Notes under the pieces: generated by a model
The model's input: only the letters and a program-made list of their open reading frames with translations
Databases searched by the model: none
What the model was told of the DNA's origin: nothing
Assembly: GCA_017859745.1 (NCBI GenBank)
Contig: JAFMML010000005.1
Span: 1-64,000, forward strand
From: Planctomycetota bacterium
Lineage (GTDB): Bacteria > Planctomycetota > Phycisphaerae > Phycisphaerales > SM1A02
Reading direction: 5' to 3'
Length of the DNA: 64,000 nucleotides
Shown: piece by piece, positions 14,763 through 32,700 of the stretch
Numbering within the stretch: position 1 is the stretch's first letter
Layout of the letters: each line of letters starts with the position of its first letter
Made by a program: the position numbers and the translations under genes

Positions 14763-14925
14763 CGGATCGCCGTCGCGTTCTCGTCGTTCCGAATCGGGCA
14801 TCCACGCCGCCTTGGGGACGAAGGGCCGAAGAGCCGCCGCGGAGGCGGTGCGACGCCATGGTCCGTCCGAACGAACGCCGACCACTTCCAGTTCAACCCC
14901 CAACGCCGATCCAGAGCCCAACTCG

Positions 14926-15324
14926 ATGCACCTGAAGCACTCCGATCACGAGCACGGTCCGCCGGTCGTTCCAGTCAAGTTCCTTCTCGAGGACCCCGAA
15001 GGTCTCACCGAGACCGAGCAGTCCGAGTGGGACCTCATGGGCGGTGAAGGCGAGAGTCTGCTCGAACTCGCGATCGATCACGGCATCAACATCGAACACG
15101 CCTGCGGCGGCGTCTGCGCCTGCTCGACCTGTCACATCTACGTCGAACAGGGCATGGATCAGCTCTCGGAGGCGACCGAGGACGAGGAGGACCGCGTCGA
15201 GGAGGCGCCGGGACTGCAACGCAACAGTCGACTCTCCTGCCAGTGCGAGATCGTCGGGAAGGGGCCGATCGTGGTGCGGGTCCCCGCGTGGAATCGCAAT
15301 GCGATCAAGGAGGTCCCGCACTAG
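14926..15324 (+). CDS. fdx: [2Fe-2S] ferredoxin, ISC type
   Basis: 132-aa adrenodoxin-type ferredoxin. The cluster ligands are the cysteines in CGGVCACSTC and the downstream SCQCE. Flanking segments GESLLELAIDHGINIEHACGG and EEAPGLQRNSRLSCQ are typical of Isc ferredoxins that donate electrons to Fe-S cluster assembly. The N-terminal 20 residues carry several His and are not conserved in the family. The iscX gene follows after 15 nt, which supports an Isc role. No iscS, iscU, iscA, hscA or hscB is present in the window. Confidence 0.88.
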   Translation: MHLKHSDHEHGPPVVPVKFLLEDPEGLTETEQSEWDLMGGEGESLLELAIDHGINIEHACGGVCACSTCHIYVEQGMDQLSEATEDEEDRVEEAPGLQRNSRLSCQCEIVGKGPIVVRVPAWNRNAIKEVPH

Positions 15325-15583: not shown

Positions 15584-16582
15584 ATGACCACTCGCTACCA
15601 CGCCGCCGCGTGCCAAACGGCCTTCGACTGCCCGACGCACCGTGACGAGATCCCCTCCCGGGTGGATCGCATGCTCGCGATCGCCGAGCAGACCATCGTC
15701 GGATACGAGCCGTTCTTCGACGTTCGGCTGCTGGCGTTTCCCGAGTTCGCCCACGCCGTGCCGACCATCGATTCGGTGCAAGGCCTTCGGGAGACCCTGG
15801 CCGTCGAACTGCCCAACGAGCACACCGATCGCTACGCGGCGTTCTGCCGCAGGTATGGGTGCTTCATCCAGACCGGGACGTTTCTGGAGCGTGTCGCCGA
15901 TCGAAGCGACGTCGTCTTCAACACGACGATGCTGATCGGGCCCGACGGCGTGCTGGCGACCTACCGCAAGGTGAATCCGTGGATTCCGTGGGAGCTTCAC
16001 GCGAGTCCGCACGATCTCGGGGTCGGTGGCGACGAGGCCTTCCCGGTCGCCGACACCGAGATCGGCAGGATCGGATGCGCGATCTGCTACGACTGGCTGT
16101 TCCCGGAGACCATTCGGGCTCTGGCGTTCCGAGGCGCGGAGGTGCTCGTCAGAGTCTCCGCCTACATGGATCCGTGGGGGGCCACGCCGCCGATGGACTG
16201 GTGGACCCTGTTCAACCGGGCCCGTGCCGCCGAGAACACCGCCTATGTGCTGGCGTCCAATCAGGGCGCGCACTTCCACCAGTACCCGCCGTTCTCGTGG
16301 CCGGGCGGCAGCATGGTCGTCGACTTCGACGGCAGGGTGCTTGCGCAGGCGGATCCGGGCCCCGGTGAAAAGGTCGTGGTCGCGCCGATCGACATCGACG
16401 CGCTCAGGGCCGAACGGGCCCGCCGGCGCGGCCACGACATGGTCGCGCATCTCAGGCGAGAGATCCACGGTCTCGGGCCCGGCCCCGGACTTGCTCCCGC
16501 GGCGGCGCATCCGATGCAGCGGGCCGAGATCGAATCCCGCATCGACGCGGCCAAGGGAGCCGTCCGTCGGAGCGAGGCATGA
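15584..16582 (+). CDS. Carbon-nitrogen hydrolase (nitrilase/aliphatic amidase family)
   Basis: 332-aa cytoplasmic amidohydrolase. The catalytic triad is visible as Glu in LAFPEFAH, Lys in YRKVNPW and Cys in GCAICYDWLFPE. The family hydrolyses C-N bonds of nitriles, amides or carbamoyl groups through a cysteine thioester. Substrate is not predictable here; the overall look is closer to amidases than to nitrilases. Its stop overlaps the start of the TPR/CRTAC1 gene by 4 nt (ATGA), so the two are probably cotranscribed even though their roles look unrelated. Confidence 0.82.
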   Translation: MTTRYHAAACQTAFDCPTHRDEIPSRVDRMLAIAEQTIVGYEPFFDVRLLAFPEFAHAVPTIDSVQGLRETLAVELPNEHTDRYAAFCRRYGCFIQTGTFLERVADRSDVVFNTTMLIGPDGVLATYRKVNPWIPWELHASPHDLGVGGDEAFPVADTEIGRIGCAICYDWLFPETIRALAFRGAEVLVRVSAYMDPWGATPPMDWWTLFNRARAAENTAYVLASNQGAHFHQYPPFSWPGGSMVVDFDGRVLAQADPGPGEKVVVAPIDIDALRAERARRRGHDMVAHLRREIHGLGPGPGLAPAAAHPMQRAEIESRIDAAKGAVRRSEA

Positions 16583-19500
16583 CCCGGTGCGACCACCGAA
16601 CCGTCCGGCGGGCGGCGTTCCTGTCGAGCCTCGTCGCATGGTGCCTCGGAGTTCCGACGACCTTCGTCCCGATGGCCGGTTGCGGAGGGGCGAACGACGC
16701 CGAGCAGGCCGGCGAGCCGGCCGATGACGGTGTGCCCTATCCGGAGTATCGCGCGGCGATGAACGTGGCGGCCGGACTCATGAACCGCTTCGAGTTCCAG
16801 GAGGCCGAGGACGCCTACCGCCAGATCGTCGCCAAGTGGGGCGGCTCGCGCGATGCCCGGCGCAACCTCGCCATCTCGATCCTGAACCAGTCCGAGCCCG
16901 GCGCGCAGGAAGAGGCGATCGAGATGCTCGATGCGTTCATGGACCGCGAGTCGCAGCGAGATGGCGGAAAGCGCCCGGTGGATCTCTCCGCGCACTATTC
17001 CAAGGGCCTCTGCCTGCTGTACCTCGGCCGCCATCGGGAGGCCCGTGACATCTTCGTCGCCTGCGGCAATCGAGCTCCGAACGATCCCTACGCGGCCTAC
17101 TTCGCAGGACAGTGCCTCGAACTCGACGGCCGTCACGAGGAGGCCCTGGACTGGTACGAGCGATCGATCGAGCTCGATCCCTATCTCAGGAGTCCGCTGC
17201 TCGGTGCGCAGCGATGTCTGGCACGCCTTGGCCGCGAATCCGAGGGCACGCCGCTGCTCGAGCGATTCCTGGCGCTCGCGGACAATCCGAGAGGGAAGCT
17301 TGCGGAGTTCAAGTACACGCGCATGGGCTCCCTCGGCGAGGTGCGGGTGCCGACGCCGGTGGAACGTCCGACACTGCCGCCGGCGGGAGCGATCTTCGCC
17401 GACGCGTCGCCGATGCCGATCGAGGGCCTTGTGCCGAACGCCGCGACGCATGTTCGTCCCGCCACGGATCTCAACGCCGACGGGGTGCTCGACTTCACGG
17501 TGGTCTCGCGGCGCGACGACGCCGGTCCGGTCGAGTCGCTGGCGCTTTCGGCAAGCGCCGAGGACGGATCGTTCGAATGGCGACTCGTTCCGTTCGATGC
17601 CTCGCCCGATGCCGGCCTGGGGTCGGCCTCGCTCTTCTGGGCGGACCTCGACAACGACGGCCGCACCGACGTGGCCGCGAGCCCGGGCGACGGCACGTCG
17701 CCGTTCTGGTGGCGACAACGGGAAGGCCTGCGCTGGTCCCGCGAGTCCTTCGGCGAAGCCGTCGACGGGACCGTTCGCCTGCTCGCCGCGGCGGACGTCG
17801 ATCACGACGGCGACGTCGACCTCGTCGCGACGAGCGCGTCGGGCAGCGCGTTCCTCATGAATCGCAGCGATGGCGACGGGACGCGAGCCACGAGCTGGAC
17901 CCTGAGGCGTCTCGAGAACTCGATGGGGAGCGCCTCGTCGGTCACGCTCGGCGACTTCGACGACGACGGCGATCTCGATCTGATGCTCCTTTCGGAGGGC
18001 GATCCGGCACAGGTGTGGATCAACGAACTGCTCTGGAGCTGGCGGCGCGACGCCCGATACCGGCCGATCGAGGCGGGTCGCCCCGCTGCGGCGGTCTGGT
18101 TCCGCGACGACGACACCGGCGGGCCTCGGATCGCGGCGTTGATCGGCGCACGCGACGAGCGTCGCCTCGGCATCTGGTCTCTGGAGGGAACTCCGGTGCC
18201 CGTGCTCGAGATCGCGGATGGCGATCGGGGTGCGGACGGAGCGACCTCGGTCGCGGCGATCGACGTCGCGGGAAGCGGTCGGGTCAACCTGCTTCTGCAC
18301 CTCGCCGACGGAGCGGCGGGGGGCACGCTCGAGATTCGCGACGCCCGAGGCGGACGACTCGAGACGATCTCCGACGTCTCGGCGGGGGCGCTTCTGGCGG
18401 TGCCCGATGCAAGAGGCCCCGTGCTGTTGACCGGACCGAACGCGGACGGCGTCCCGCAATGGCGCGACGCCGGACCAGGACGCATGCCGTTCGCGGCGGT
18501 GTGGTTCAGCGGACGCACCGATCCGTCGCAGCAGATGCGTTCCAACGCCAGCGGACTCGGCACCCGGGGCGATGCCAGGACCTTCGACAGCTGGCAGTCG
18601 CGCACCCTTCTGCCTTGGCGAAGCGGCGCAAGCGCTCAGCCGCTCGAACCGGTCCTCTACGGTCTCGGCGGGGCGAGGGAGATCGACTGGCTCTTCATCG
18701 AGTGGCCCGACGGAGTGCTGCAGAGCGAACTCGATCTCGAATCGGGCATCGAGACCTTCGCCGAGATCCAACGACAGATCTCCTCCTGTCCGGTGATCTT
18801 CGCGTGGAACGGTCGCCGATTCGAGTTCGTCACCGACGCGCTTGGTGTCGGCGGCATGGGCTATCTCGCGGCGATCGAGGAAGGCCCGAACGGCGAACTG
18901 GCTCCGGCCTATCCCACGCCCCGGCCGCTCGAATCGGTGCGTCTCGGGGGGGCGGACGCGCTCGCGCCGCGCGAGGGCCGCTACGAGATCCGTCTGGGCG
19001 AGCCCATGGAGGAGGCGTGCTATCTCGATGCGGCGCGACTCGTCGCATGGGACCTGCCGCCGGGGTGGTCGATGACCCTCGACGAGCGCATGGGAATCTC
19101 CGGGCCCGCCCCGACGGGAGAAGCCGCGTTCTTCCGGCGTTCGATGGTTCCGAGCGAAGCGGTCGTCGTCGTGGGCGACGGCGGGCCCCAGGACGTGCTC
19201 GACGCGGTGATCGAGGTGGACCACGTCGCCGCCGACCCCGGGCCGCACCATGCCAGGTTCATCGGCCGCACCGAGGACCTGTGGACCTTGACCTTCGGCT
19301 TCCCGCGACCGATCGCAGGCGACGGCCGCGGGGTTCCCACGCTCTTGATGGACGGCTGGGTCGAGTATCCCTACTCCTCGACCTCCTTCGCGATGTGGCA
19401 GGCGGACGCGATTCCGGAGCCACCCACGCTCGAGGCGCTCGATCCGGCCACCGGCGAATGGACGATTCTGGTCGAGCACTACGGCTATCCCGCGGGCATG

Positions 19501-20067
19501 CCCCGGCAGGCGTCGTTCCCGATTCCGACCGATCGCCTGCCCGCGGACTGCGTGGCACTGCGACTTCGGACCTCCAACGAGATCTACATCGATCGCCTCG
19601 CCCTCGCCTGGCTCGAGCCGTGTCCCGAGGCGAGGCGAATCCAGGCGCCGCTGGTGGCCGGAAGCGTGGCGGACGCCGGATTCGCCCAGCGGCCGTCGTT
19701 GCCGCAGCGCCGGCCCTGGTACGACTACGAGCGTCGGGTGCCGTTGTGGGACGTCCGATTCCAAGAGGGCTTCTACACCGCGTTCGGCGACTGCACGCCG
19801 CTGCTTGCCGAGACCGACGACGCGGTGGCGATCTTCGGCGGGGGCGAGGAGATTCGTCTGGAGTTCGACTCGGACGTCTCGGAAGCGCCGCCGGACTGGA
19901 CGCGAACCTGGGTGCTCGAACTCGATGGGTGGTGCAAGGACATGGATCCCTACACGGGACTCGGCGACACCCTCGAGCCGCTGCCCCTGCGGGCGGGCTC
20001 GGTCTCGACGCCGCAGCGCGAGGCCCTGCATCGACGCTTCAACACCCGCTTCGCGGCGGGCCGCTGA
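16579..20067 (+). CDS. TPR and CRTAC1 (VCBS/ASPIC-UnbV) lipoprotein
   Basis: 1162-aa exported protein. The signal sequence ends in a lipobox (PMAGC, cysteine near residue 35). TPR-like helices fill about residues 55-240. FG-GAP/VCBS repeats follow, with calcium-binding loops such as DLNADGVLDF, DLDNDGRTDV, DVDHDGDVDL and DFDDDGDLDL (about 290-480). An ASPIC-UnbV-like segment (about 660-730, IEWPDGVLQSE) is next. A 430-residue C-terminal region begins CPVIFAWNGRRFEFVTD and is often seen in such proteins in Acidobacteria and Planctomycetes. The FG-GAP part should form a beta-propeller outside the cytoplasm. Function is unknown. It stands 70 nt before the pentaheme cytochrome gene. Confidence 0.78.
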   Translation: MTRCDHRTVRRAAFLSSLVAWCLGVPTTFVPMAGCGGANDAEQAGEPADDGVPYPEYRAAMNVAAGLMNRFEFQEAEDAYRQIVAKWGGSRDARRNLAISILNQSEPGAQEEAIEMLDAFMDRESQRDGGKRPVDLSAHYSKGLCLLYLGRHREARDIFVACGNRAPNDPYAAYFAGQCLELDGRHEEALDWYERSIELDPYLRSPLLGAQRCLARLGRESEGTPLLERFLALADNPRGKLAEFKYTRMGSLGEVRVPTPVERPTLPPAGAIFADASPMPIEGLVPNAATHVRPATDLNADGVLDFTVVSRRDDAGPVESLALSASAEDGSFEWRLVPFDASPDAGLGSASLFWADLDNDGRTDVAASPGDGTSPFWWRQREGLRWSRESFGEAVDGTVRLLAAADVDHDGDVDLVATSASGSAFLMNRSDGDGTRATSWTLRRLENSMGSASSVTLGDFDDDGDLDLMLLSEGDPAQVWINELLWSWRRDARYRPIEAGRPAAAVWFRDDDTGGPRIAALIGARDERRLGIWSLEGTPVPVLEIADGDRGADGATSVAAIDVAGSGRVNLLLHLADGAAGGTLEIRDARGGRLETISDVSAGALLAVPDARGPVLLTGPNADGVPQWRDAGPGRMPFAAVWFSGRTDPSQQMRSNASGLGTRGDARTFDSWQSRTLLPWRSGASAQPLEPVLYGLGGAREIDWLFIEWPDGVLQSELDLESGIETFAEIQRQISSCPVIFAWNGRRFEFVTDALGVGGMGYLAAIEEGPNGELAPAYPTPRPLESVRLGGADALAPREGRYEIRLGEPMEEACYLDAARLVAWDLPPGWSMTLDERMGISGPAPTGEAAFFRRSMVPSEAVVVVGDGGPQDVLDAVIEVDHVAADPGPHHARFIGRTEDLWTLTFGFPRPIAGDGRGVPTLLMDGWVEYPYSSTSFAMWQADAIPEPPTLEALDPATGEWTILVEHYGYPAGMPRQASFPIPTDRLPADCVALRLRTSNEIYIDRLALAWLEPCPEARRIQAPLVAGSVADAGFAQRPSLPQRRPWYDYERRVPLWDVRFQEGFYTAFGDCTPLLAETDDAVAIFGGGEEIRLEFDSDVSEAPPDWTRTWVLELDGWCKDMDPYTGLGDTLEPLPLRAGSVSTPQREALHRRFNTRFAAGR

Positions 20068-20125
20068 GGTCGGCGGACCGACGGCGTTTGCCGAAACGAC
20101 TCGGCGCCGAACGACGTGGCGCCGA

Positions 20126-20131
20126 TAGAGT
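20126..20131 (+). promoter_or_regulatory. -10-like TAGAGT before the pentaheme cytochrome gene
   Basis: TAGAGT ends 6 nt before the GTG start at 20138 and no Shine-Dalgarno is present. This would allow the cytochrome and the following CRTAC1 gene to be transcribed separately from the upstream gene. Confidence 0.5.
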
Positions 20132-20137
20132 CTCGAC

Positions 20138-23011
20138 GTGAATGCGCCTTTCCGAGACTCCTCGACCGCCGGTGCCGTCGGCCCCCGCCTTCGCTGGCTG
20201 CTGAGGGTGGTGCTGGGTCTCTTCGCGTTGCTGGTCGTCAACAGCCTTGCGCTGGCGACGGTGACCTTCCTGGAGTGGCGCACCGGCGACTCCTGGCAGG
20301 ATGGGATCTATCTCTGGAACGTCCTGCTGCATCTGCTGCTGGGACTGGTGCTGATCCTGCCGACGATCGCCTTCGGCCTGCTGCACATGCTTCGTGCCCG
20401 CGGCCTGCCGAATCGCGACGCCGCCCGCGTCGGGTATGCGCTCTTCGCCGTGGCGATCGCGCTGCTTGCGACCGGGTTGCTGCTGATGCGGATCGAAGTG
20501 GGCGGTGTCGAATTGGGGCTCGGCGCGACGGGGCCGCGGACGGCGATCTACTGGCTGCATGTCGCGTTGCCGCTGGTCGCAGCGTGGCTCTTCACGATCC
20601 ACCGTCTCGCAGGGCCGCGCATCCGCTGGAGGATCGGCGGCCGCTGGGCCCTTGCGAGCGTGGCCTTCGCGGCGGGCATGCTCGTCTGGCACGCGGCGGC
20701 GAGCGGCTCCTCCGCCGAGACGAACCGCGAAGCCGCCGACGATGCGGATCCCTCTTGGCTCGAGCCGTCCCTCGCGAGGACCGTCTCCGGCGATCCGCTG
20801 CCGCTGCGCACGCTGCAGATGAACGAGTACTGCCTCGAGTGCCACGAGGACACGTACCACCGGTGGGCGCAGTCCGTGCACGCGGCGAGCTCCTTCAACA
20901 ACCCCGCGTACGCCTTCAGCGTGCGCGAGACCCGACGTCGGGCCGTGGAACGGGAAGGCACCAACGCCGATGCCCGGTTCTGCGCCGGATGCCACGATCC
21001 CGTGCCGCTGCTGGCCGGACTCGTCGACGATCCGCGGTTCGACGATCCCCACCTCGACCCTCACGATCCGGTCGGCGCCGCAAGCATCTCCTGCACGGTC
21101 TGCCACTCGGTGGTCGACGTCCGCGGCACCCGCGGAAACGCCGAGTACACCATCGAGGAGAGTCCGCAGTATCCCTTCACCTTCAGCGAGAGCCCGCTGC
21201 TTCGCTGGGTCAACCGCCAGTTGATTCGCGCGAAGCCCGCCTTCCACAAGCGCACCTTCCTCAAGCCGGAGGTCCACCACTCGGGCGAGTTCTGCGCGAC
21301 CTGCCACAAGGTGTTTCTTCCGGAGTCGCTCAACGACTACCGCTGGTTGCCCGGCCAGAACCACTGGGACAGCTTCCGGCTGAGCGGCGTGTCGGGGCAC
21401 GGCGTCGCCAGCTGGAACTATCCGGCCCAGGCGCAGACCAACTGCAACGACTGCCACATGCCGCTTCGGACCGAAGGCGAGCCCGGCGTGCTTGCGGATC
21501 TGGGCGCCAAGAGGCGAACCGCCTCGGAGCCGCCGACGATTCGCGACCATCTCTTTCCCGGCGGCAACTCCGCCATCGCCTGTCTCGACGGCCGGCCGGA
21601 CTGTCGGGGACTCGTCGACGAGCTCCAGGCGTTCAATCGGGACACGATCCGCCTCGATCTCGTGGCGTTGCGGGAAGGGGGCGTCGTGGACGGGCGCTTG
21701 ATCGGCCCGTTGCGTCCGGAGATCCCGGCCCTCGAGCGTGGCGGCCGCTACCTCCTCGAGGCGGTGGTCAGGACGCTTGCGATCGGCCACGCCCTCACGC
21801 AGGGCACCGCCGACAGCAACGAGGTGTGGCTCGACGTCGCGTTGCGGGACGGCGACGGTCGCATCGTGGGCCGATCCGGCGGCATGGACGACGCGGGATC
21901 GGTCGATCCGTGGTCGCGGTTCTACAACGTCTTCCTGCTCGACCGAGATGGTCGGCGGATCGATCGCCGCAACCCGCAGGACATCTTCACGCCCCTCTAC
22001 GACCATCAGGTTCCGCCCGGAGCGGGAGACGTCACCCATCTCGCGTTCACGGTGCCAGCCGACGCGATCGGTCCCCTCGTCGTCGACGCGGCGGTGCGCT
22101 ACCGCAAGTTCGACACGAACTACCTGCGCCTCTTCACCGGCGATCCGCAGCGGACGAACGACCTGCCGGTGCTCACGCTGGCCGAGGATCGCCTGGTTCT
22201 CCCGATCGGGACGGAGGGGGCGGAGCGCGGGACGGACGACCCTTCGCTTCCGCCGACGTGGGAACGTCTGCAGGACTACGGGATCGGTCTCTTCCGGCAG
22301 GGGGAGGCCCCGGCGGCGAAGGGCCCGCTGCGACAGGCCGGCGAGGTCTTTTCGATGGTGGAGGCGATGGGGCGGGCCGAAGGCGCGCTCGGACTGGCGC
22401 GGACCATGCTTCGAGAGGGCCGGATCGACGATGCGGCGGCGGCGCTCGAGCGTGCCGCCACGATGGAGCCGCCGGCGGTGCCATGGTCGATCGCGTGGTT
22501 CTCGGCGCAGGTCGATCGGGAGCGAGGCGATCTCGATGCGGCCCTGGTCAATCTGCGACGTCTCGTGGCGACCGACTTCGCCGACGCGCGTCGTCGCGGC
22601 TTCGACTTCTCGAAGGACGATCGCCTGCTGCGCCGACTTGCCGACACCCTGCTGCTCGCGTCGCGCAGCGCCACGGCGGCGCAGCGGGACGACCTTCTTG
22701 CCGAGGCCGACCGCTGGATTCGAGAGGCTCTGGAGCTCGATGTGCAGCAGTACCGGACCTGGTACCTGCTGGCGCAGATCGAGCAGGCCCGCGGCAACGA
22801 CGAGGCGGCGAACGCGGCCCTGGCCGAACATGCGAGGTACAAGCCGGACGACAACGCCAAGGACCGTGCCGTGGCGGCGGCGCGACAGCGATACCCCGCG
22901 GCGAATCACGCCGCCGAGGCGGTGGTGATCCACGATCTCCAGCGGACGGGGGCGTTCGGTCTTCCGATCGCTCCGGAGGAGGTCGCCGCGGCCGGCGGAT
23001 CTCGGCCGTGA
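20138..23011 (+). CDS. Membrane-anchored pentaheme cytochrome c with TPR tail
   Basis: 957-aa protein in three parts. The N-terminus has four or five hydrophobic helices (about residues 20-190) with histidines at 65, 83, 141, 155 and 185. Five CxxCH haem sites follow: CLECH 232, CAGCH 282, CTVCH 319, CATCH 386 and CNDCH 436, in the style of cytochrome c-554 domains. A beta-rich region (about 500-700) precedes a TPR-like tail (about 710-930). The soluble haem part should face the periplasm and pass electrons to or from the membrane. The GTG start has TAGAGT 6 nt upstream and no ribosome site. Its stop overlaps the next CRTAC1 gene (GTGA). The redox partner is unknown. Confidence 0.82.
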   Translation: MNAPFRDSSTAGAVGPRLRWLLRVVLGLFALLVVNSLALATVTFLEWRTGDSWQDGIYLWNVLLHLLLGLVLILPTIAFGLLHMLRARGLPNRDAARVGYALFAVAIALLATGLLLMRIEVGGVELGLGATGPRTAIYWLHVALPLVAAWLFTIHRLAGPRIRWRIGGRWALASVAFAAGMLVWHAAASGSSAETNREAADDADPSWLEPSLARTVSGDPLPLRTLQMNEYCLECHEDTYHRWAQSVHAASSFNNPAYAFSVRETRRRAVEREGTNADARFCAGCHDPVPLLAGLVDDPRFDDPHLDPHDPVGAASISCTVCHSVVDVRGTRGNAEYTIEESPQYPFTFSESPLLRWVNRQLIRAKPAFHKRTFLKPEVHHSGEFCATCHKVFLPESLNDYRWLPGQNHWDSFRLSGVSGHGVASWNYPAQAQTNCNDCHMPLRTEGEPGVLADLGAKRRTASEPPTIRDHLFPGGNSAIACLDGRPDCRGLVDELQAFNRDTIRLDLVALREGGVVDGRLIGPLRPEIPALERGGRYLLEAVVRTLAIGHALTQGTADSNEVWLDVALRDGDGRIVGRSGGMDDAGSVDPWSRFYNVFLLDRDGRRIDRRNPQDIFTPLYDHQVPPGAGDVTHLAFTVPADAIGPLVVDAAVRYRKFDTNYLRLFTGDPQRTNDLPVLTLAEDRLVLPIGTEGAERGTDDPSLPPTWERLQDYGIGLFRQGEAPAAKGPLRQAGEVFSMVEAMGRAEGALGLARTMLREGRIDDAAAALERAATMEPPAVPWSIAWFSAQVDRERGDLDAALVNLRRLVATDFADARRRGFDFSKDDRLLRRLADTLLLASRSATAAQRDDLLAEADRWIREALELDVQQYRTWYLLAQIEQARGNDEAANAALAEHARYKPDDNAKDRAVAAARQRYPAANHAAEAVVIHDLQRTGAFGLPIAPEEVAAAGGSRP

Positions 23012-24909
23012 CCGCGGGAGCCGGGCAAGACCCCGAGATTCGACGGGCGATGCGTCGCTCGTCGATCGGCCTTCTGGTCGTGGTTGGCGTGGTCGCTGCC
23101 GGGGCGACGCTGCGATGGTGGTTCGACGTTCCCCAGCGGAACGACGGCAGTGTGCTGGCGCCCTCGACGCCGGAGATTCGAGCCGCCTCGTCGAACGAGG
23201 TCGAGTGGACGCGGGTCTTCCGCGACCGTGCGACCGCTCGGGGCGTCGACTTCGTCCACGTCGAGGGCGCGACGGGGCGGAAGCTCCTTCCCGAGACCCT
23301 CGGGGGCGGTGTGGCGATCGCCGACGTCGATGGCGACGGCGATCCGGATCTGGCCTTCGTCGACGGCGACGCCTGGCCCGGCGACGAGGGGAGGCGAGGC
23401 CGCGGCGTCGTGCTGCTTCTCAACGACGGGACCGGCACGTTCACGACGCCGACCGGATCGACCGGCCTCGAGAGGCCGTTTGCGGGCATGGGCATCGCGG
23501 TCGGCGACATCGACGGCGATCGGGACCTGGACCTGCTCGCCACCGGCGTGTCGGGCGTGCGTCTCTTCCGCAACGAGACCGACTCCACGGGGCCACGGTT
23601 CGTCGAGTCGACCGGCGAGGCCGGCCTGCAGGCGATGGAGGGCTGGTCGACCGCCGCCGGGTTCGGCGATCTCGATGCCGACGGCGATCTCGACCTCGTG
23701 GTGGCCCACTACGTCGAGTGGAGTCCCGAGCTCGACGAGGCCGTCGACTATCGCCTCGCGGGGCTGGGGCGAGCCTACGGCCCGCCGCTGGGATTCGCCG
23801 GCGAGCGTCTCCGCCTCTTTCTCAACGACGGCGGAGGCCGCTTCGAGGAACGCACCGCGACGGCGGGCCTCGACGTGCGGAATCCCGCGACCGGCGAACC
23901 GATGGCGAAGGCCCTCGGCATGCTGCTCGAGGATCTCGACGACGACGGGGATCTCGATCTCTTCATCGCCAACGACACCGTCGCCAACATGCTCTTCCTG
24001 AACCGCGGGGACGCCACGTTCGAGGAGGTCGGCGCCGCCGCGGGCATCGCCTTCGACCGAAGCGGCGCCGCGACCGGCGCGATGGGCGTCGACGCGTGCC
24101 GCCTCGGAGGCGCGTCGCCGATGCTGGCGATCGCCGTCGGAAACTTCGCGAACGAGCCCACCTCGCTCTACTGCCGGCCGATCGGCGAGGCGGGGCCGCC
24201 TCGGTTCGCAGACGATTCGATTCCGCTGGGGCTGTCGGCGGCGACGCGGCCGGCGCTCACCTTCGGCCTGCTGTGGGCGGATCTCGACGGGGACGGCGTC
24301 GAGGAACTCGTCGCCGCCAACGGACACCTCGAAGAGGAGATCTCGCGCCTCCAGCCGAGTCAGCGGTACCGGCAATCGGCGCAGGTGTTCGCCCGTGCCG
24401 GCGCCGACGAGTCGCGCTTCTTGCCCGTGTCGGCGGAGGCGATCGGCGACCTCGCCGAACCCGTCGTCGGACGTGGCCTCGCGTCGGGCGACCTGGATCT
24501 CGACGGCGACCTCGATCTGGTGCTGACGCAGATCGGAGGTCCTCCGCTGGTCCTGTTCAACGAGTCGGCGGGCGAGGGAGGCGTCGAGGCGCCGACATCG
24601 CCGCACTGGATACGTCTGGTGCTGGACGGCCCACGGGGCGACGCCTCGGTGGTGGGTGCGGTCGTCGTGGTCGACGCCGGAGGCCGTGCCCTCGTGCGGC
24701 GGGTCGCCCCGACGCGCAGCTACCTCTCTCAAGTCGAGCGTCCCTTGACGATCGGCCTCGGTGGAGCGTCGTGGATCGACCGTCTGGAGGTCCGATGGGC
24801 CGGAGGCGGACGCACCGTGGTCGAGGATCTCCCAGTCGATCGAACGATTCGCATCGATGGCGAGGGTGTGATCGCCGACCCGGCGCCCTCTTCTCCCGGC
24901 GATGCCTGA
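23008..24909 (+). CDS. CRTAC1 family protein (VCBS repeats, ASPIC-UnbV), membrane-anchored
   Basis: 633-aa protein with one N-terminal transmembrane anchor (about residues 17-34). FG-GAP/VCBS calcium loops follow: DVDGDGDPDL, DIDGDRDLDL, DLDADGDLDL, DLDDDGDLDL and DLDLDGDLDL. A C-terminal ASPIC-UnbV domain (about 550-625) ends in IDRLEVRWAGGGRT. It should form a beta-propeller on the outer face of the membrane. The GTG at 23008 overlaps the cytochrome stop by 4 nt, so it is translationally coupled to the pentaheme protein; an ATG at 23050 is a weaker alternative. Proteins of this type often neighbour multihaem cytochromes in Planctomycetes, but no function is established. Confidence 0.8.
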   Translation: MTAGAGQDPEIRRAMRRSSIGLLVVVGVVAAGATLRWWFDVPQRNDGSVLAPSTPEIRAASSNEVEWTRVFRDRATARGVDFVHVEGATGRKLLPETLGGGVAIADVDGDGDPDLAFVDGDAWPGDEGRRGRGVVLLLNDGTGTFTTPTGSTGLERPFAGMGIAVGDIDGDRDLDLLATGVSGVRLFRNETDSTGPRFVESTGEAGLQAMEGWSTAAGFGDLDADGDLDLVVAHYVEWSPELDEAVDYRLAGLGRAYGPPLGFAGERLRLFLNDGGGRFEERTATAGLDVRNPATGEPMAKALGMLLEDLDDDGDLDLFIANDTVANMLFLNRGDATFEEVGAAAGIAFDRSGAATGAMGVDACRLGGASPMLAIAVGNFANEPTSLYCRPIGEAGPPRFADDSIPLGLSAATRPALTFGLLWADLDGDGVEELVAANGHLEEEISRLQPSQRYRQSAQVFARAGADESRFLPVSAEAIGDLAEPVVGRGLASGDLDLDGDLDLVLTQIGGPPLVLFNESAGEGGVEAPTSPHWIRLVLDGPRGDASVVGAVVVVDAGGRALVRRVAPTRSYLSQVERPLTIGLGGASWIDRLEVRWAGGGRTVVEDLPVDRTIRIDGEGVIADPAPSSPGDA

Positions 24910-24922
24910 AATCGTCGATTTC
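24908..24922. terminator. Palindrome at the end of the cytochrome/CRTAC1 unit
   Basis: GAAATCG-T-CGATTTC is a perfect 15-nt inverted repeat that begins at the stop codon of the CRTAC1 gene. It has no T-tract and almost no loop, so it could be an operator for the next gene instead of a terminator. Confidence 0.3.
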
Positions 24923-25015
24923 CCCTTGCATCGAGAGTTCACCGCGGGAATGCTGAGACCGCCGTCGGTCGACGGGGACGCGCACACGCCGAATTCGGCG
25001 AAGGGAGAAAGGGTC

Positions 25016-25714
25016 ATGAACGCCACGCGATGCGGGGTCGCTCGGAGACTGGTTCGAGGTGCGGGGCTCGCGCTGCTCGCGGCCGGTGCCTTCGGAGGAC
25101 AGGCTTCGGCGGAGATGGTGCTCGTCGAGCTGCGAGGGATCGTCGAGTTCAACCAGGTCAACGCGCCGCCGGTCGGCAACCTGACTGCAGGGACGGAGGT
25201 GCTGCTGTCGTTGATGCTCGACAGCGAGGAGTTCACCGACAGCACGACCTATCCGACTCGCGGCTACCTGATCAGCGACTTCACCCTGATGGGAGGCGGC
25301 ACGTCCATCGGCCTCGCGTCGCCGTATCCCGCCGGCGCGACGCCCTACTTCGTGCTTCGGGACAACGATCCGGCGGTCGACGGCTTCTTCATCGCCGACA
25401 GCGTCGACTTCCCGATCGGCGTCGAACTCGATGCCCCCGGGATCTTCGGCGCCTTCTCGCACGACTTCAGCGTCTCCTACGTCGGCGACACCCTTGGATC
25501 GCTCGATCTGCTCGATGCCGTCGGCACCTACGGGTTCGGCGGCCTCAAGAGCTTCAACTGGGTGATCGACGACGGCCCATTCTCGCCGGTCGGGCTCGTC
25601 TTCGATTCGATGGAGATCTCGGTGGTGCCGGCGCCGGCGCCTCTCGTCGTCGGCGGACTGTGGGGCGTTCTCCGCGGTGGGCGGTCGCGTCGTCGCGACT
25701 CGGCGGTCGCCTAG
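25016..25714 (+). CDS. Secreted protein with VPAP/PEP-CTERM-like sorting tail
   Basis: 232-aa exported protein. The signal peptide ends near QASA (about residue 35). The body is acidic and beta-rich with no named domain that I recognise. The C-terminus has VVPAPAPLVVGGLWGV, a short hydrophobic stretch and an Arg cluster (RSRRR), the three-part layout of PEP-CTERM signals cleaved by exosortase. Such proteins are usually surface or exopolysaccharide-associated. GGGAGAAAGGG lies just before the ATG at 25016, one of the strongest ribosome sites in the window. No exosortase is encoded here. Confidence 0.72.
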   Translation: MNATRCGVARRLVRGAGLALLAAGAFGGQASAEMVLVELRGIVEFNQVNAPPVGNLTAGTEVLLSLMLDSEEFTDSTTYPTRGYLISDFTLMGGGTSIGLASPYPAGATPYFVLRDNDPAVDGFFIADSVDFPIGVELDAPGIFGAFSHDFSVSYVGDTLGSLDLLDAVGTYGFGGLKSFNWVIDDGPFSPVGLVFDSMEISVVPAPAPLVVGGLWGVLRGGRSRRRDSAVA

Positions 25715-26140: not shown

Positions 26141-28048
26141 GTGCCCCTCACGTCGGCCATATCGACCACGCCTGCCAGCAATCCGTCGCCACCCGCGTCG
26201 CAGTCTTCGACAGGATGCGTCCAGTCGCGGGAGCGCCGAGACCTTCTCGAGACGTTGGGTTCGGCCATCGAGGCGGTGGAGGCCGGACACGCCCTCGACC
26301 GGATCGAGGCACGTCTGCGGCATCGGGAGCATCTGCAGCGACGGCTCGAAGCCGACGGCACGGATGCCGAACCGGCGTTGGCAGTCGATGTCGCGCCGGA
26401 GGATGTCGGCGAGTCCAGAAGCGGCAGATCCGTCGTCAGGTTGGAAGGCCTGTCGGGCGGCCCCAAACCGAACTCCAAACCGAACTCCAAACCGAACTCC
26501 AAACCGAACTCCAAACCGAACTCAGAGCCGAACTCCAAGCCGAGCCCAGGCCCAAATCCAGAAACCGACGGCACGTTCGAACCCTCGACGCCATCTCCAT
26601 GCCCCGATCGAGTCGGTTCCGGCGTGCACGAACTGTTCTCGAGATCGACCGACGTCTCGGTGGCGCCTGCAGGCGATGCCGACCTGCCTGGTGGCGTCCG
26701 TCGCTCGCCCTCGTCACGGCACGATCGGATCTGGCTTCCGCCACTCGGTGCCGCCATCGGCTGGTTGTGGCGTCTGATCGATCGGCGAGGCGCCTCGCGG
26801 ACTGGCGAGACTGGAGAAGGGATGGACATCGCGCGGGGCGCGTCGAGCAGCACGTGCGAACTCGGGCGCATCCTCTGGGTGGGTTCGCGGGTGTTCCCGC
26901 ATGCGCGTTCGCTGGTCGCCGGCCTTCGAGCAGGTTCGTCGCGCTCCATCGACCGTCGACTCCTTGCAAGGTCCTGGTTCATCGACGTGCCCGAGTCGGA
27001 AAACGGAGCCTCGACGATGCGCCGGCGTCGCGACAACCGTCGATCCGACGCGCCGAGACGCCGATTCGCTCACCGAACCTCGGTCCTCGAACAGGCGATC
27101 CGCTGCCCCGGCGTGATGGCGGTCGTCGCCGATGGCGAAGGTCTTCCCATGGCCTGCACGAGGCGACTGCACCTTGCGGTTCGGCAGGCGGAAGCCCAGG
27201 GCCGGCGAATCCTCGTGCTGCTGCTTCGGCCGCCATGGGACCTCGGCACGATCTCCGCCGCGGCGAGTCGGTGGAGCGTTGCGCCGATGGGACATGAGAC
27301 GGCAGTGCGGCCGCGTTGCGAGACCCATTGCGACATCACGCCCCACGGCGACTCGGGCAGGGATCCGGTTCGAGGCGAGAGCCTTGTTTCCGTCGCTTGG
27401 CGTCTGCAGATGCTGCATTGCAAGGGAGGCGTTGGGGTCCGCGCGTCGGGGAATTCGACGCCGTCGGAACGCCCCGGCGTGATCGATCTTCGTCTCGGGG
27501 GCGTCCCCGAACGGTTGTGGATGCACGAGTGGGAGTGTCGGGATGGGTGCGACACGGCGAATTCTGGCGATGGTGCTTCCGGAGTGGTCGGTGGAACTGG
27601 TGCTGCGAAGGTGGCGAGCCGAACGATCCGAGGCAGCCGGCCCCACCGATCCGATCCAGCCGACCCAGTCGACCTGCCAAGGCGGACATGTCGCGAGCCG
27701 GTCTCCGAGCCCGAGTCGCCCGTTTCCCGTGACGTCGCCGAGCGAGGGGGCTGCGCTGCAGTCGGATCCGCCGTACGCCTGCCGAGTCTCGACGACACGG
27801 ATGCGTGGACCGGCGATCGCCCGACATCTCGTGACGGCGACGAACCCACGCGAGTCGCTGTCGGACACTCGACGCCGATCGAGCACGGATCGCCGAAATT
27901 CGGCGGGCGTGCGACGGCAGGCCGTGCCGGCACTCGTCGTGCAGACCGTGGCGGGTCGGCAGATCGTCAGGCGATGCTGTTCGAGATGCCGGCAGCGAGG
28001 GGTCCGGACGGGCCTGGACCTCGCCGAGGCCCGCATGCTGCTCGGTGA
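26141..28048 (+). CDS. imuA: ImuA-like mutasome protein (RecA-fold homologue), enlarged
   Basis: 635-aa frame placed directly before imuB. Residues about 160-450 follow the ImuA layout: GSGVHELF, GRILWVGSRVFPHARSLV, VLEQAIRCPGVMAVVAD, RRLHLAVRQAEAQGRRILVL and the closing WRLQMLHCKGG. ImuA works with ImuB and DnaE2 in damage-induced mutagenesis. The GTG at 26141 has GGGAG 7 nt upstream. Usual ImuA proteins are 200-270 aa. This one has an N-terminal addition with five or six KPNS repeats (from residue 109), and its frame runs 506 nt into imuB before a stop. The true C-terminus may therefore be unusual, or a frameshift may lie near 27540. Confidence 0.65.
   Translation: MPLTSAISTTPASNPSPPASQSSTGCVQSRERRDLLETLGSAIEAVEAGHALDRIEARLRHREHLQRRLEADGTDAEPALAVDVAPEDVGESRSGRSVVRLEGLSGGPKPNSKPNSKPNSKPNSKPNSEPNSKPSPGPNPETDGTFEPSTPSPCPDRVGSGVHELFSRSTDVSVAPAGDADLPGGVRRSPSSRHDRIWLPPLGAAIGWLWRLIDRRGASRTGETGEGMDIARGASSSTCELGRILWVGSRVFPHARSLVAGLRAGSSRSIDRRLLARSWFIDVPESENGASTMRRRRDNRRSDAPRRRFAHRTSVLEQAIRCPGVMAVVADGEGLPMACTRRLHLAVRQAEAQGRRILVLLLRPPWDLGTISAAASRWSVAPMGHETAVRPRCETHCDITPHGDSGRDPVRGESLVSVAWRLQMLHCKGGVGVRASGNSTPSERPGVIDLRLGGVPERLWMHEWECRDGCDTANSGDGASGVVGGTGAAKVASRTIRGSRPHRSDPADPVDLPRRTCREPVSEPESPVSRDVAERGGCAAVGSAVRLPSLDDTDAWTGDRPTSRDGDEPTRVAVGHSTPIEHGSPKFGGRATAGRAGTRRADRGGSADRQAMLFEMPAARGPDGPGPRRGPHAAR
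26465..26548 (+). repeat. In-frame 12-bp tandem repeat encoding KPNS
   Basis: Seven units of AAACCGAACTCC, the last two or three diverged, are in register with the imuA codons and encode Lys-Pro-Asn-Ser. Copy-number change would alter a flexible linker without shifting frame. Confidence 0.85.
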
Positions 28049-29711
28049 GGATGCCTTCCTTCATGGAGAGCACGCGCCGATCGTGGCGGACTTCAACCCG
28101 GCTGGAGATGCGAGACGCCTCCTTCGCTTGGCCGAATGGTGCGGCCGCTTCGCCCCGATCGTCGGCACCTGTCATGCCAGGGAGGAGTGGGAAGACGGCA
28201 CGGAGCCGCCGGGACTCCTCTTCGACCTCCATGGCTGCGAGGATCTTCTGGAGCACCGCTACGGCGAAGGCGACCTTCACCGCAACGAACAGCGATTCGC
28301 CCTGGATGTCGAAGCGTCGCTGGACCGCCTCGGCCTGACCGCCTTCGCCGTGGTGGCGGACACGGTGGGGCTCGCCTGGGGAGTCGCTTGGCATCGCGCG
28401 GCGTCCCAACCCGCCGAGATCGGATCCCACGAGGGGCGGGACCAGGCGCCGCCTGCCGAGGTCTCGGACGCCTTGCGAACCGACCGCGTCGTTCGTCCGA
28501 GCGAGGCACATGCCACGTTCGAGGATCTGCCCATCGAAGCGTTGCGTCTCGACGAGGAGACGCGGACGGGACTGCGGCAACTCCATTTCGAGAAGGTCGC
28601 CGATCTGCTCGCCGTCGATCGTGCCGAACTCGGCCTTCGCTTCGGATCGCTGGTGCCCCGTCGCATCGCTCAGGCGCTCGGCGAGATCGGGGAGACCGTC
28701 GTTCCGGTGCGCGCGGTGCCGATCTTCGAGATCGATCGGGAGTTCGCCACGCCCGTCCAGGCTCGGGAGGGACTGGAACTGGCCGTGGGTGCCATGTTGG
28801 AGGAGTTGTGCGATCGACTGCGCCGTGAAGAGCAGGGCGTGGAGCGCCTTCGTCTCGTGGCGGATCGACTCGATCTGCCTCCCGTCTCGCTGGTCCTCTC
28901 CCTGAGCCGGGCGAGTCGGCGCATCGGCCATCTCTGGAGTCTGCTGTCGCAGCGCATGGAGGAGATCGATCCGGGGCTGGGCGTCGAGCGGCTCTCGCTC
29001 CGAGCGTTGCGGGTCCGGACGCTGCCGCATCGCCAGAGATCGTTGACCCGGAGCGGGCAAGGTCGCCACGACGGCTCGATGGTCGACGGCGACCACGCCG
29101 ACACTCCCGACGCCTTCGCCGACGAGGCCGCCGCGGCGGAACTTGCCGATTCGATCATCGCTCGGTGGGGCGAGCAGGCGGTCCGGCGGCCGGGACCGAT
29201 CGAGGCGCATGTGCCCGAGACAGGAGACCGGCTGGTCCCGATTCGTTCGAAGCCGGAGCGGACGGCCACATCCGATCGCGACATGTCGCGGTGGCCGCGA
29301 AGCCTTCGCCCGACCCTGCTTCGGCATCGGCCCGATCCCATTCGGATCGAGTGGATCGGACGGGCCGACCATGGCGAGCACCTCACGGTGGACCACGAAC
29401 TCGACACCGCGGGGGAACTGGTCGTCTGGTGGCGTGGTCGTGCTCGCAGGGTGGTTGCAGCGGAGGGCCCCGAACGCATCGCGGAGCCGTGGTGGCGCCG
29501 CGACGATCGAATGCCCGGCGAGAGGGAGCTTCCGCAGATCCGCGAATACTGGACATGCCGGTTCGAGGGCGGGCTCTGGGCATGGGTGTTTCGAGAGGTG
29601 TGCATCGAGGGGCGAGACGGCGCGGAGAGCGGTCCCGAGACGAAGGGGTCCCACGATCGCGGCAGGAGTCGTGTGCAGAGTCGCTGGTTTCTCCACGGGC
29701 TTTGGGCATGA
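27543..29711 (+). CDS. imuB: ImuB, catalytically inactive Y-family polymerase homologue
   Basis: 722-aa member of the DNA polymerase Y family. ImuB links ImuA and the beta clamp to DnaE2 in error-prone translesion synthesis. The start RRILAMVLPEWSVELVL is the typical ImuB beginning. The palm and fingers region resumes at VRTGLDLAEARMLLGED, and the helix-hairpin-helix segment reads FEDLPIEALRLDEETRTGLRQL. Acidic catalytic residues are not retained, as in other ImuB proteins. About 95 Ser/Arg/Pro-rich residues (30-125) interrupt the N-terminal part; this is the stretch overlapped by imuA. Its stop overlaps the dnaE2 start (ATGA). Confidence 0.82.
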   Translation: MGATRRILAMVLPEWSVELVLRRWRAERSEAAGPTDPIQPTQSTCQGGHVASRSPSPSRPFPVTSPSEGAALQSDPPYACRVSTTRMRGPAIARHLVTATNPRESLSDTRRRSSTDRRNSAGVRRQAVPALVVQTVAGRQIVRRCCSRCRQRGVRTGLDLAEARMLLGEDAFLHGEHAPIVADFNPAGDARRLLRLAEWCGRFAPIVGTCHAREEWEDGTEPPGLLFDLHGCEDLLEHRYGEGDLHRNEQRFALDVEASLDRLGLTAFAVVADTVGLAWGVAWHRAASQPAEIGSHEGRDQAPPAEVSDALRTDRVVRPSEAHATFEDLPIEALRLDEETRTGLRQLHFEKVADLLAVDRAELGLRFGSLVPRRIAQALGEIGETVVPVRAVPIFEIDREFATPVQAREGLELAVGAMLEELCDRLRREEQGVERLRLVADRLDLPPVSLVLSLSRASRRIGHLWSLLSQRMEEIDPGLGVERLSLRALRVRTLPHRQRSLTRSGQGRHDGSMVDGDHADTPDAFADEAAAAELADSIIARWGEQAVRRPGPIEAHVPETGDRLVPIRSKPERTATSDRDMSRWPRSLRPTLLRHRPDPIRIEWIGRADHGEHLTVDHELDTAGELVVWWRGRARRVVAAEGPERIAEPWWRRDDRMPGERELPQIREYWTCRFEGGLWAWVFREVCIEGRDGAESGPETKGSHDRGRSRVQSRWFLHGLWA

Positions 29712-32700
29712 CCGGGAAGACGCTGCGGACCGACGAGATGTCGGCGCCGCCATCGCCCTCGCACAGGACCGACGGTGCCGGTTCGTTCGTCGATCTCGAG
29801 GTCACGAGCAACTTCACCTTCCTGACCGGCGCGAGCCATCCCCATGAACTCGTCGAACGCGCCGCCGGACTCGGCGCTCCGGCGGTCGCGATCACCGATC
29901 GTGCGACGCTCGCCGGCGTGGTGCGAGCCCATCAGGCGGCCCAGAGGATGGGCATCCATCTCGTGGTGGGGGCGAGACTCGGTGTCTGGCTCGATCTCGC
30001 GTGCGCCATCGACGAGCCGACGTTGCCGGAACCGCGTCTCCATCCCCACGCTCCGGCTCCGCCGGGATTCCTCGAGGTGCTGGTGCATGTGCCCGACCTT
30101 CCCGCCTACGCGCGTCTGTCGCGCCTGATCACACTCGGTCGCCGCCGCGCCTCGAAGGGGCGATGCCTGCTGTCGCTGCACGATCTCCTTGCCCATGCGG
30201 GTCCGGGGCCGGCGGACACATCGCCTGGGCGAAGTCCCGAAGACGCCGCCTCCGACGACGGCCTGATGCTGACGCTTGTTCCTCCTCCGGTGCTCGACGA
30301 GGCGTTTCTCGAAGCGGCCAGGGGGATCGCGGCCAGCGCGGGCCTCCGCGAAGGCGCCGCAGACCGCCTCTCGATCGCGGTTCGGCGGATCGGCGATCCG
30401 GACGAGTCGATCCGGGTGGAGCAACTCGCGACGTTGTCGGAGCATCTCGGTGTTCCTCTCGTCGCCACGAACGACGTCCACTGGCACGACGACCGGCGCC
30501 GGCCGCTGCAGGACGTCCTGACGGCGATCCGGCATCGAACCACCCTCGATCGTGCGGGTCTGGATCTGCTCGGGGGTGGAGATCGTCGTTTGCAGAGCGA
30601 CGCGTCGATGCGGGCGAGATTTCGAACCCTGCCGGCGGCGGCTCGGGAGGCCGTGGACCGAGCGGGCTCGATCGCGGCGAGGTGCCGCGGGTTCCGTCTC
30701 GACCAGTTGCGCTACGAGTACCCCCACGAGGTCGTCCCCGAGGGACGTTCGCCCGACGAGCATCTGCGTCGACTCGTCGAGCAAGGTGCCCGCGAGCGGT
30801 ATCCGCCGGGGATCCATCCCGACGGCGTCCCGATCCGGGTCCGCGAGCGCATCGAGCATGAGCTGGCGCTCGTTCGCGAACTCGACTACGCCCGCTACTT
30901 CCTGACCGTCCACGACATCGTGCGCTTCGCCCGCGATCGTGGGATCCTCTGTCAGGGGCGGGGTGCCGCGGCCAACAGCGTGATCTGCTTCTGCCTCGGA
31001 GTGACCGCGGTCGACCCCGATCGGATCGAGACGCTCTTCGAGCGCTTCGTCAGCCGCGAACGCGACGAGCCTCCGGACATCGACGTCGACTTCGAGCACC
31101 AACGGCGCGAGGAGGTCATCCAGTACCTCTACCGGCGATACGGCCGCGAACGGGCGGCCCTCGCCGCCGAGGTGATCTGCTACCGCGGCCGCAGCTCGGT
31201 CCGCGAGGTCGGGAAGGTGCTGGGCTTCGCGCCGGAGACCCTCGATCGTCTCGCCTCGGGACTCGATCGCTGGGAGGCCGGGGGCGGCGATCCGGAGCGC
31301 ATCCGCGAGGCGGGCTTCGATCCCGCGACTCCGGCGCTGCGGCGGGTGCTGGCGCTTGCCAACGAGCTGGTGGGATTCCCTCGTCATCTCTCCCAGCATG
31401 TCGGCGGCTTCGTGATCAGCGAGCGCCCGCTCTGCGAGATCGTGCCCATCGAGAACGCCGCGATGGCGGATCGGACCGTCATCGAATGGGACAAGGACGA
31501 CCTCGATGCGATGGGCATGCTGAAGGTGGACATTCTGGCGCTGGGCATGTTGAGCGCGATTCGCCGGACGATCGAACTCGTGAACGACTCGGCCGGAACC
31601 GACGGGCGCGACGGCGACTCGCCGCCGCTTCGCTACCACACGATTCCGGCCGAGGATCCGGCGGTCTACGACATGCTTTGCACAGGCGATTCCGTCGGCG
31701 TCTTCCAGGTCGAGAGTCGGGCCCAGATGAACATGCTGCCGCGGCTCCGGCCTCGCTGCTTCTACGACCTCGTCATCGAGGTCGCCATCGTGCGGCCGGG
31801 GCCGATCCAGGGCGACATGGTCCATCCCTATCTGCGAAGGCGGCGGGGCGAGGAATCGTTGGAGTATCCCGACCAGGAGATCCGACGGGTGCTCGAACGC
31901 ACCCTCGGGGTCCCGCTCTTCCAGGAGCAGGCGATGGCCCTGGCGGTGGTGGCGGCGGGCTTCTCGCCAGGCGAGGCGGACCGGCTGCGGCGGGCGCTGG
32001 CGGCCTGGAAGCGGCCCGGCAACTCGATCGACGAGTTCCGCAGACGCCTGATCGAAGGCATGCGTTCTCGCGGCTACGACCACGCGTTCGCCGAACAGGT
32101 CTTCGAGCGGATCCGGGGATTCAGCGGCTACGGGTTCCCGGAGAGCCATGCCGCGAGCTTTGCGCTGCTGGTCTACGTCTCGGCGTGGCTCAAGCGCCGG
32201 CATCCCGCGGCGTTCACCGCGGCGCTGCTCGACAGTCAGCCGATGGGGTTCTACGCACCGGCGCAACTGGTGCGAGACGCTCGCGACCACGGCGTGCGGG
32301 TGCGGCGGGTCGACGTGGCCCGAAGCGGATGGTCCAGTCGACTCGAGCACGACCGCTCGATCGCGGACCCGTGGATGCGAGAGGGTGCTTCCGCCGATGC
32401 GCGGGGGGGTGCCGTGGGGATGGCCGAGATCGATGCCGCGACGGCGGAGCGATCGCATTCGCACCCGATCGGAGACGCCGCGTCGACAAGTCTTCGTGTG
32501 GATCGGCCGGCTCTTCGACTGGGCATGCAGATGGTGCGGGGACTTTCCGAGGAGGATGCTCTTGCGATCGTGGACACGGTGGAGCGTCACGGTCCTCCGG
32601 TCTCGATCGAGTCGTTGTGGTCGCAGAGCGGCGTCGGCGCCGCGGCTCTGCGTCGCCTGGCCGCGGCGGAGGCGTTCGGGTCTCTCGGGCTCGACCGGTC

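Follow-up and report, generated by a model that had tools for sequence, protein, structure and literature searches.

Proteins of the CRTAC1 kind (cartilage acidic protein 1; ASPIC/UnbV) are abundant in Planctomycetota, and we know of no assigned role for any bacterial CRTAC1/ASPIC-UnbV protein. The one published association of CRTAC1 and multihaem proteins that we found in the open-access literature is that of the hydrazine-synthase-like clusters of anaerobes, in which an FG-GAP/CRTAC1 gene lies beside multihaem genes, some of them with c554 domains (PMC12758564). Quinone-linked membrane cytochromes are known in CbcL, MtrH and MtoC of Geobacter and other bacteria, where an inner-membrane dihaem cytochrome b is fused to a periplasmic multihaem c part (PMC9129911, PMC6295460); in CbcL the c domain comes first, with nine c haems in G. 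sulfurreducens, followed by six transmembrane (TM) helices. Clusters of 'Planctomycete-specific' cytochrome c (PSCyt) genes of unknown function are also widespread in Planctomycetota and Verrucomicrobia (PMC5615132).

The locus described here lies in a window of 64,000 nucleotides (the whole stretch of DNA that was analysed) from a 3.24 Mb assembly, 97% complete, whose relatives are Phycisphaerae MAGs (Planctomycetota). Genes A, B and C are tandem and co-directional on the forward strand (Table 1). The first-pass annotation had described three genes in a row with the last two overlapping, and the reading frames bear this out: the GTG start of C at 23008 shares four nucleotides with the stop of B (GTGA), an ATG at 23050 being the alternative start, and the same 4-nt overlap is seen again in 19 of 74 loci. 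Chance open reading frames are ruled out by conservation, all five CXXCH motifs of B being invariant in 56 orthologues, and so is a chance adjacency of A, B and C, by the conservation of their linkage. NCBIfam gave no name above its cut-off to A, B or C, and PADLOC found no match to known anti-phage defence systems. Unlike the hydrazine-synthase-like clusters, the locus has no HZS-like subunit, and unlike the PSCyt clusters, A, B and C have no PSCyt or PSD domain among their Pfam matches. We found no description of the A-B-C module in the open-access literature; for the cytochrome part a precedent exists in the 5ZE8 structure and, in function, in the CbcL analogues. Our best reading, by analogy, is that the module would work like the CbcL-type bc cytochromes but outside that family.

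The start of A overlaps by four nucleotides the stop of a nitrilase-type gene, which is found upstream of A in many loci of the window's family and has no match in the gammaproteobacterial loci. As its linkage to A is limited to the window's family, we consider it an operon neighbour and not a core part; the ferredoxin gene at 14923-15324 was rejected as a core part on the same ground of limited linkage. A small forward-strand ORF at 24902-25714, with a signal-like N terminus, begins inside the end of C; it has no Pfam match and no relative in any fetched locus and was not retained as part of the module. Elsewhere in the window, a short tandem repeat near 26480 (within 26141-28048) would translate in one frame into a peptide repeat of the PNSK type and resembles low-complexity or tandem-repeat DNA, and the forward strand at 27999-33280 encodes a DnaE2-type error-prone polymerase (NCBIfam PRK05672, 1327 bits). 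The ORF before it has a weak DNA polymerase IV/Y-family match, and the two look like an imuB-dnaE2 mutagenesis cassette.

Table 1. Coordinates of the genes and haem-ligand codons of the A-B-C locus in the window.
Feature	Position	Strand	Description
Gene A	16579-20067	+	1162 aa; probable lipoprotein, TPR + CRTAC1-like propeller/ASPIC + C-terminal beta domain
Gene B	20138-23011	+	957 aa, GTG start; inner-membrane b/c cytochrome, TPR tail
Gene C	23008-24909	+	TM anchor, CRTAC1-type FG-GAP propeller, ASPIC/UnbV domain
Carbon-nitrogen hydrolase (nitrilase/amidase superfamily)	15584-16582	+	Pfam PF00795, E=3e-37
Codons of H65, H83, H141 and H155 of B	20330-20332, 20384-20386, 20558-20560, 20600-20602	+	Invariant in 56/56 B orthologues; predicted ligands of two b haems
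Five CXXCH haem-c motifs of B	20831-21457	+	aa 232-236, 282-286, 319-323, 386-390, 436-440

Protein B and its larger family

Protein B was analysed in an alignment of 56 full-length sequences, the orthologues being 45-71% identical to the B of the window, and in an AF2 model (pLDDT 87.6, pTM 0.86). In the model, the N-terminal domain consists of five membrane helices (residues 16-49, 56-87, 93-116, 131-157 and 164-189); this domain, with its four invariant His, had not been recognised in the first-pass annotation. H65 and H141 lie about 10 residues into their helices and H83 and H155 about 25, and with an N-in topology, to which a periplasmic c domain leads us, helices 2 and 4 would cross the membrane in the same direction, from outside to inside. 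Such His pairs at matched depth are the pattern expected of a dihaem cytochrome b, and would hold two b haems spanning the membrane. A search of the TM domain against the cytochrome-b families of Pfam and the PDB profiles gave nothing above threshold; the names it offered (Yip1, DUF4405, COX15-CtaA and others) were all sub-threshold and were not adopted, and Foldseek/VIA with the whole of B matched mostly the TPR part. This predicted dihaem-b domain lends support to the earlier claim that the cytochrome carries electrons to the membrane or away from it. Like CbcL, B would pair a dihaem b domain with a periplasmic multihaem c domain; unlike CbcL, MtrH and MtoC, in which an N-terminal c domain precedes a mostly six-helix b domain, all five helices of B are N-terminal to the c domain, and B differs further from CbcL in its five c haems, its Ig and TPR parts and its partners.

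The proposal that B is a membrane pentahaem cytochrome with a TPR tail is confirmed by the five CXXCH motifs and by TPRs at about residues 707-920. Pfam Cytochrome_C554 (PF13435) matches B with 26.9 bits, the curated cut-off being 20.8. Like the pentahaem c552 of Thermochromatium tepidum (5ZE8), B has five CXXCH motifs followed by an Ig-like beta-sandwich; residues 223-688, which comprise both, align to that structure with Z 15.1 over 344 residues (rmsd 3.6 Å, 19% identity), and sequence similarity between the two (E=2e-4) covers haem motifs one to three. Unlike B, the 5ZE8 chain (435 residues) has neither a membrane b domain nor a TPR tail. B is probably an inner-membrane protein with seven haems (b2c5).

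Weaker matches to B in the survey sample, here called B2 and B3, are 28-32% identical to it and have the same make-up, with N-terminal helices, His pairs 18 and 14 residues apart and five CXXCH motifs. Many of their genes have a CRTAC1 gene next downstream, and at least one (L130) does not. One genome of the window's family (G021), which also carries the A-B-C set, encodes at L132:2143-6229 a paralogous pentahaem membrane cytochrome of 771 aa (about 28% identity to B), whose gene overlaps one of the CRTAC1 type. The combination of cytochrome and CRTAC1 is therefore an old association and not a local accident.

Six His outside the CXXCH motifs, in or after the c part of B, are kept in at least 55 of the 56 sequences (H248, H370, H380, H409, H471 and H551). 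It is unlikely, in our view, that B is itself a periplasmic multihaem enzyme, a reductase or oxidase of a small nitrogen, sulfur or other substrate, with the b haems as its link to quinone and the propellers as scaffolds. The c554/HAO-type sequences do include enzymes, and other bacteria have CRTAC1 genes flanked by hydrazine-synthase-like ones, of which some carry c554 domains (PMC12758564). Besides the membrane His and the CXXCH columns, only H248, H370, H471 and H551 are kept in all seven aligned B/B2/B3 sequences, so that the fifth c haem might be open. However, H380 and H409 are also kept in 55 of 56 members of the B subfamily, there is no CXXCK motif in B, and no catalytic family of Pfam or NCBIfam matched above cut-off. 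As the six His suffice for bis-His ligation of five haems, the sequence favours a role for B in electron transfer rather than catalysis.

The propeller proteins A and C

Protein A had been described as a lipidated TPR/propeller protein; its TPRs and propeller were found as proposed, and its lipidation is probable. Pfam detects TPRs at about residues 54-234 and FG-GAP repeats, and the AF2 model (pLDDT 78) places after the TPRs a region at 268-731, which matches mouse CRTAC1 (9ETN) including the ASPIC region (Z 25.4, 434 residues), and then a beta-rich region at 735-1162. The UnbV_ASPIC profile of Pfam has no sequence match in A. The C-terminal domain (~735-1162), an addition to the first-pass annotation, is conserved in an alignment of 19 sequences that includes divergent members at 27-28% identity. 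The N-terminal signal of A carries Cys35. Many orthologues show a lipobox of canonical appearance, and of the others whose N terminus is intact most share a Cys at this position; in most of the intact proteins a Cys closes the hydrophobic signal, and we regard A as a probable lipoprotein. Protein C was correctly anticipated as a membrane-anchored beta-propeller: Pfam finds three FG-GAP matches (FG-GAP_3, 1e-30) and UnbV_ASPIC (4e-15), its profile finds mouse CRTAC1 with E=4e-31, and a single N-terminal TM segment is present in 43 of 43 orthologues. The A propeller and C thus share fold or sequence with CRTAC1; they differ from it in belonging to bacterial proteins that are anchored in the membrane or, probably, by a lipid and that are associated with a cytochrome, and A has TPRs and a C-terminal domain in addition. 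We saw no recognisable redox ligands in the propellers of A or C, and no haem motifs in A.

Linkage and distribution of the three genes

A genome scan with B gave 80 loci, which by the submitters' labels belong to Planctomycetota, Acidobacteriota, Gammaproteobacteria and records labelled Deltaproteobacteria and Gemmatimonadetes. B is followed by C within 700 nt in 73 of the 75 loci whose contig is long enough, the exceptions being L069 (2.2 kb) and L059, and in 35 of the 80 loci the flank that was fetched also contains the C-terminal domain of A. Among 392 evenly sampled Planctomycetota genomes, 72 have a full-length B, and in 64 of these it is directly followed by the best C homologue; several of the remaining eight are contig breaks, whereas in G143 B and the best C are truly unlinked, 551 kb apart on one contig. 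No CRTAC1 gene adjoins B at the B loci of G143 and G204. A homologue of the A C-terminal domain, usually one, is present in 72/72 genomes with B against 66/320 without it; for a top-scoring C the counts are 72/72 and 26/320. The Fisher p values (3e-40 and 5e-57) overstate independence, as the genomes are related, and the pattern spans many families. The earlier claim of a conserved envelope electron-transfer set passed the adjacency test proposed with it, in that the B-C pair is nearly universal and A accompanies it in 72/72 genomes, but in loci outside the window's family A frequently lies apart from the pair: contiguous A-B-C is found in that family and in Gammaproteobacteria, and elsewhere A is often further off or on the opposite strand. 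As A is unlinked in many genomes and present in 66 without B, it may serve other systems as well.

In a tree of B, made by a quick method and with many forks open, the gammaproteobacterial sequences cluster inside a mostly planctomycete tree, which suggests that they were acquired by transfer. Of the 72 genomes with B, 71 carry a haem-copper oxidase gene, against 229 of the 320 without B, and we favour a role for the module in aerobes. In most of the loci read, neither a porin nor another cytochrome gene was a conserved neighbour of the module; a survey of neighbours by ORF clusters was cluttered by shadow ORFs of the GC-rich DNA.

Other arrangements were noticed among the loci. In three loci of Pirellulaceae (L081:9262-9705, L090:7297-7758 and L110:9270-9695) a small secreted Cys-containing protein with an ASCGDWL... 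motif is encoded just upstream of B, replacing A. Some relatives have a block of genes between A and B (L050:5788-9943), including one that resembles an FAD/NAD(P)-dependent dehydrogenase, the nitrilase-A pair being intact. Downstream of C, some relatives (L046:14714-21853 and L050:15024-22033) have a divergent pair, a large FG-GAP protein and a two-CXXCH protein. The pair is followed by a TPR gene that overlaps another CRTAC1 gene, and the whole may be a second cytochrome/propeller set.

Proposed role of the module

On this evidence we think it probable that A, B and C form a conserved envelope electron-transfer module, in which a quinone-linked b2c5 cytochrome works with dedicated propeller/TPR partners. 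B would sit in the inner membrane with its b haems at H65-H141 on the periplasmic side and at H83-H155 on the cytoplasmic side; these would exchange electrons with the quinone pool, and electrons would pass to or from the five periplasmic c haems. C would be the dedicated periplasmic partner of B and A the second one, and together they may hold the donor or acceptor of the electrons for the pentahaem domain, by docking or presenting it. The computations establish the gene structure, the invariance of the haem ligands, the folds, the B-C linkage and the occurrence of A alongside B; the haem b content, the quinone reactivity and the formation of a complex are predictions. We lean to electrons flowing from a periplasmic or surface donor into the aerobic quinone pool, since nearly all carriers encode haem-copper oxidases. 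A wider proposal, which we put forward tentatively, is that of a hitherto unrecognised and widely distributed family of quinone-linked b2c5 cytochromes working only with dedicated CRTAC1 partners as an aerobic respiratory entry point for a periplasmic or surface donor, in Planctomycetota and others.

The reverse route, an extracellular conduit of the porin-cytochrome kind that takes quinol electrons outward through A at the surface, would suit the make-up of B, which is that of CbcL and other bc cytochromes linked to quinone (PMC9129911), and the surface-type domains of A as a probable lipoprotein. We hold it to be improbable: A has no haem motifs, and the oxidase-bearing carriers, together with the lack of a conserved porin or cytochrome neighbour in most of the loci read, make classical anaerobic extracellular respiration less likely. 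That B chemically modifies or recharges its CRTAC1 partner (e.g., an oxidised aromatic) to give a protein-derived redox or metal site, as the dihaem MbnH oxidises an aromatic residue of MbnP, seems to us very improbable. It would suit the almost constant association of one propeller with a multihaem protein and the residues invariant in 43/43 C proteins (W213, Y235, W238, Y257 and H440); against it, B is not of the dihaem-peroxidase type, and conserved aromatics are also expected of a propeller core.

An electron-transfer module remains our preferred reading: the set is shared by many bacteria, most of them oxygen-respiring, and looks like a real electron-transfer set of the envelope. Named isolates in culture are among its carriers (Rhodopirellula europaea, R. 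maiorica, Roseiconus nitratireducens and Roseimaritima sediminicola), so that knock-outs or biochemistry are feasible. For one group of CRTAC1 proteins, the nearly constant association with a membrane cytochrome provides a role that can be tested, and the B proteins are probably a family of quinone-linked cytochromes that respiratory-chain annotation lacks.
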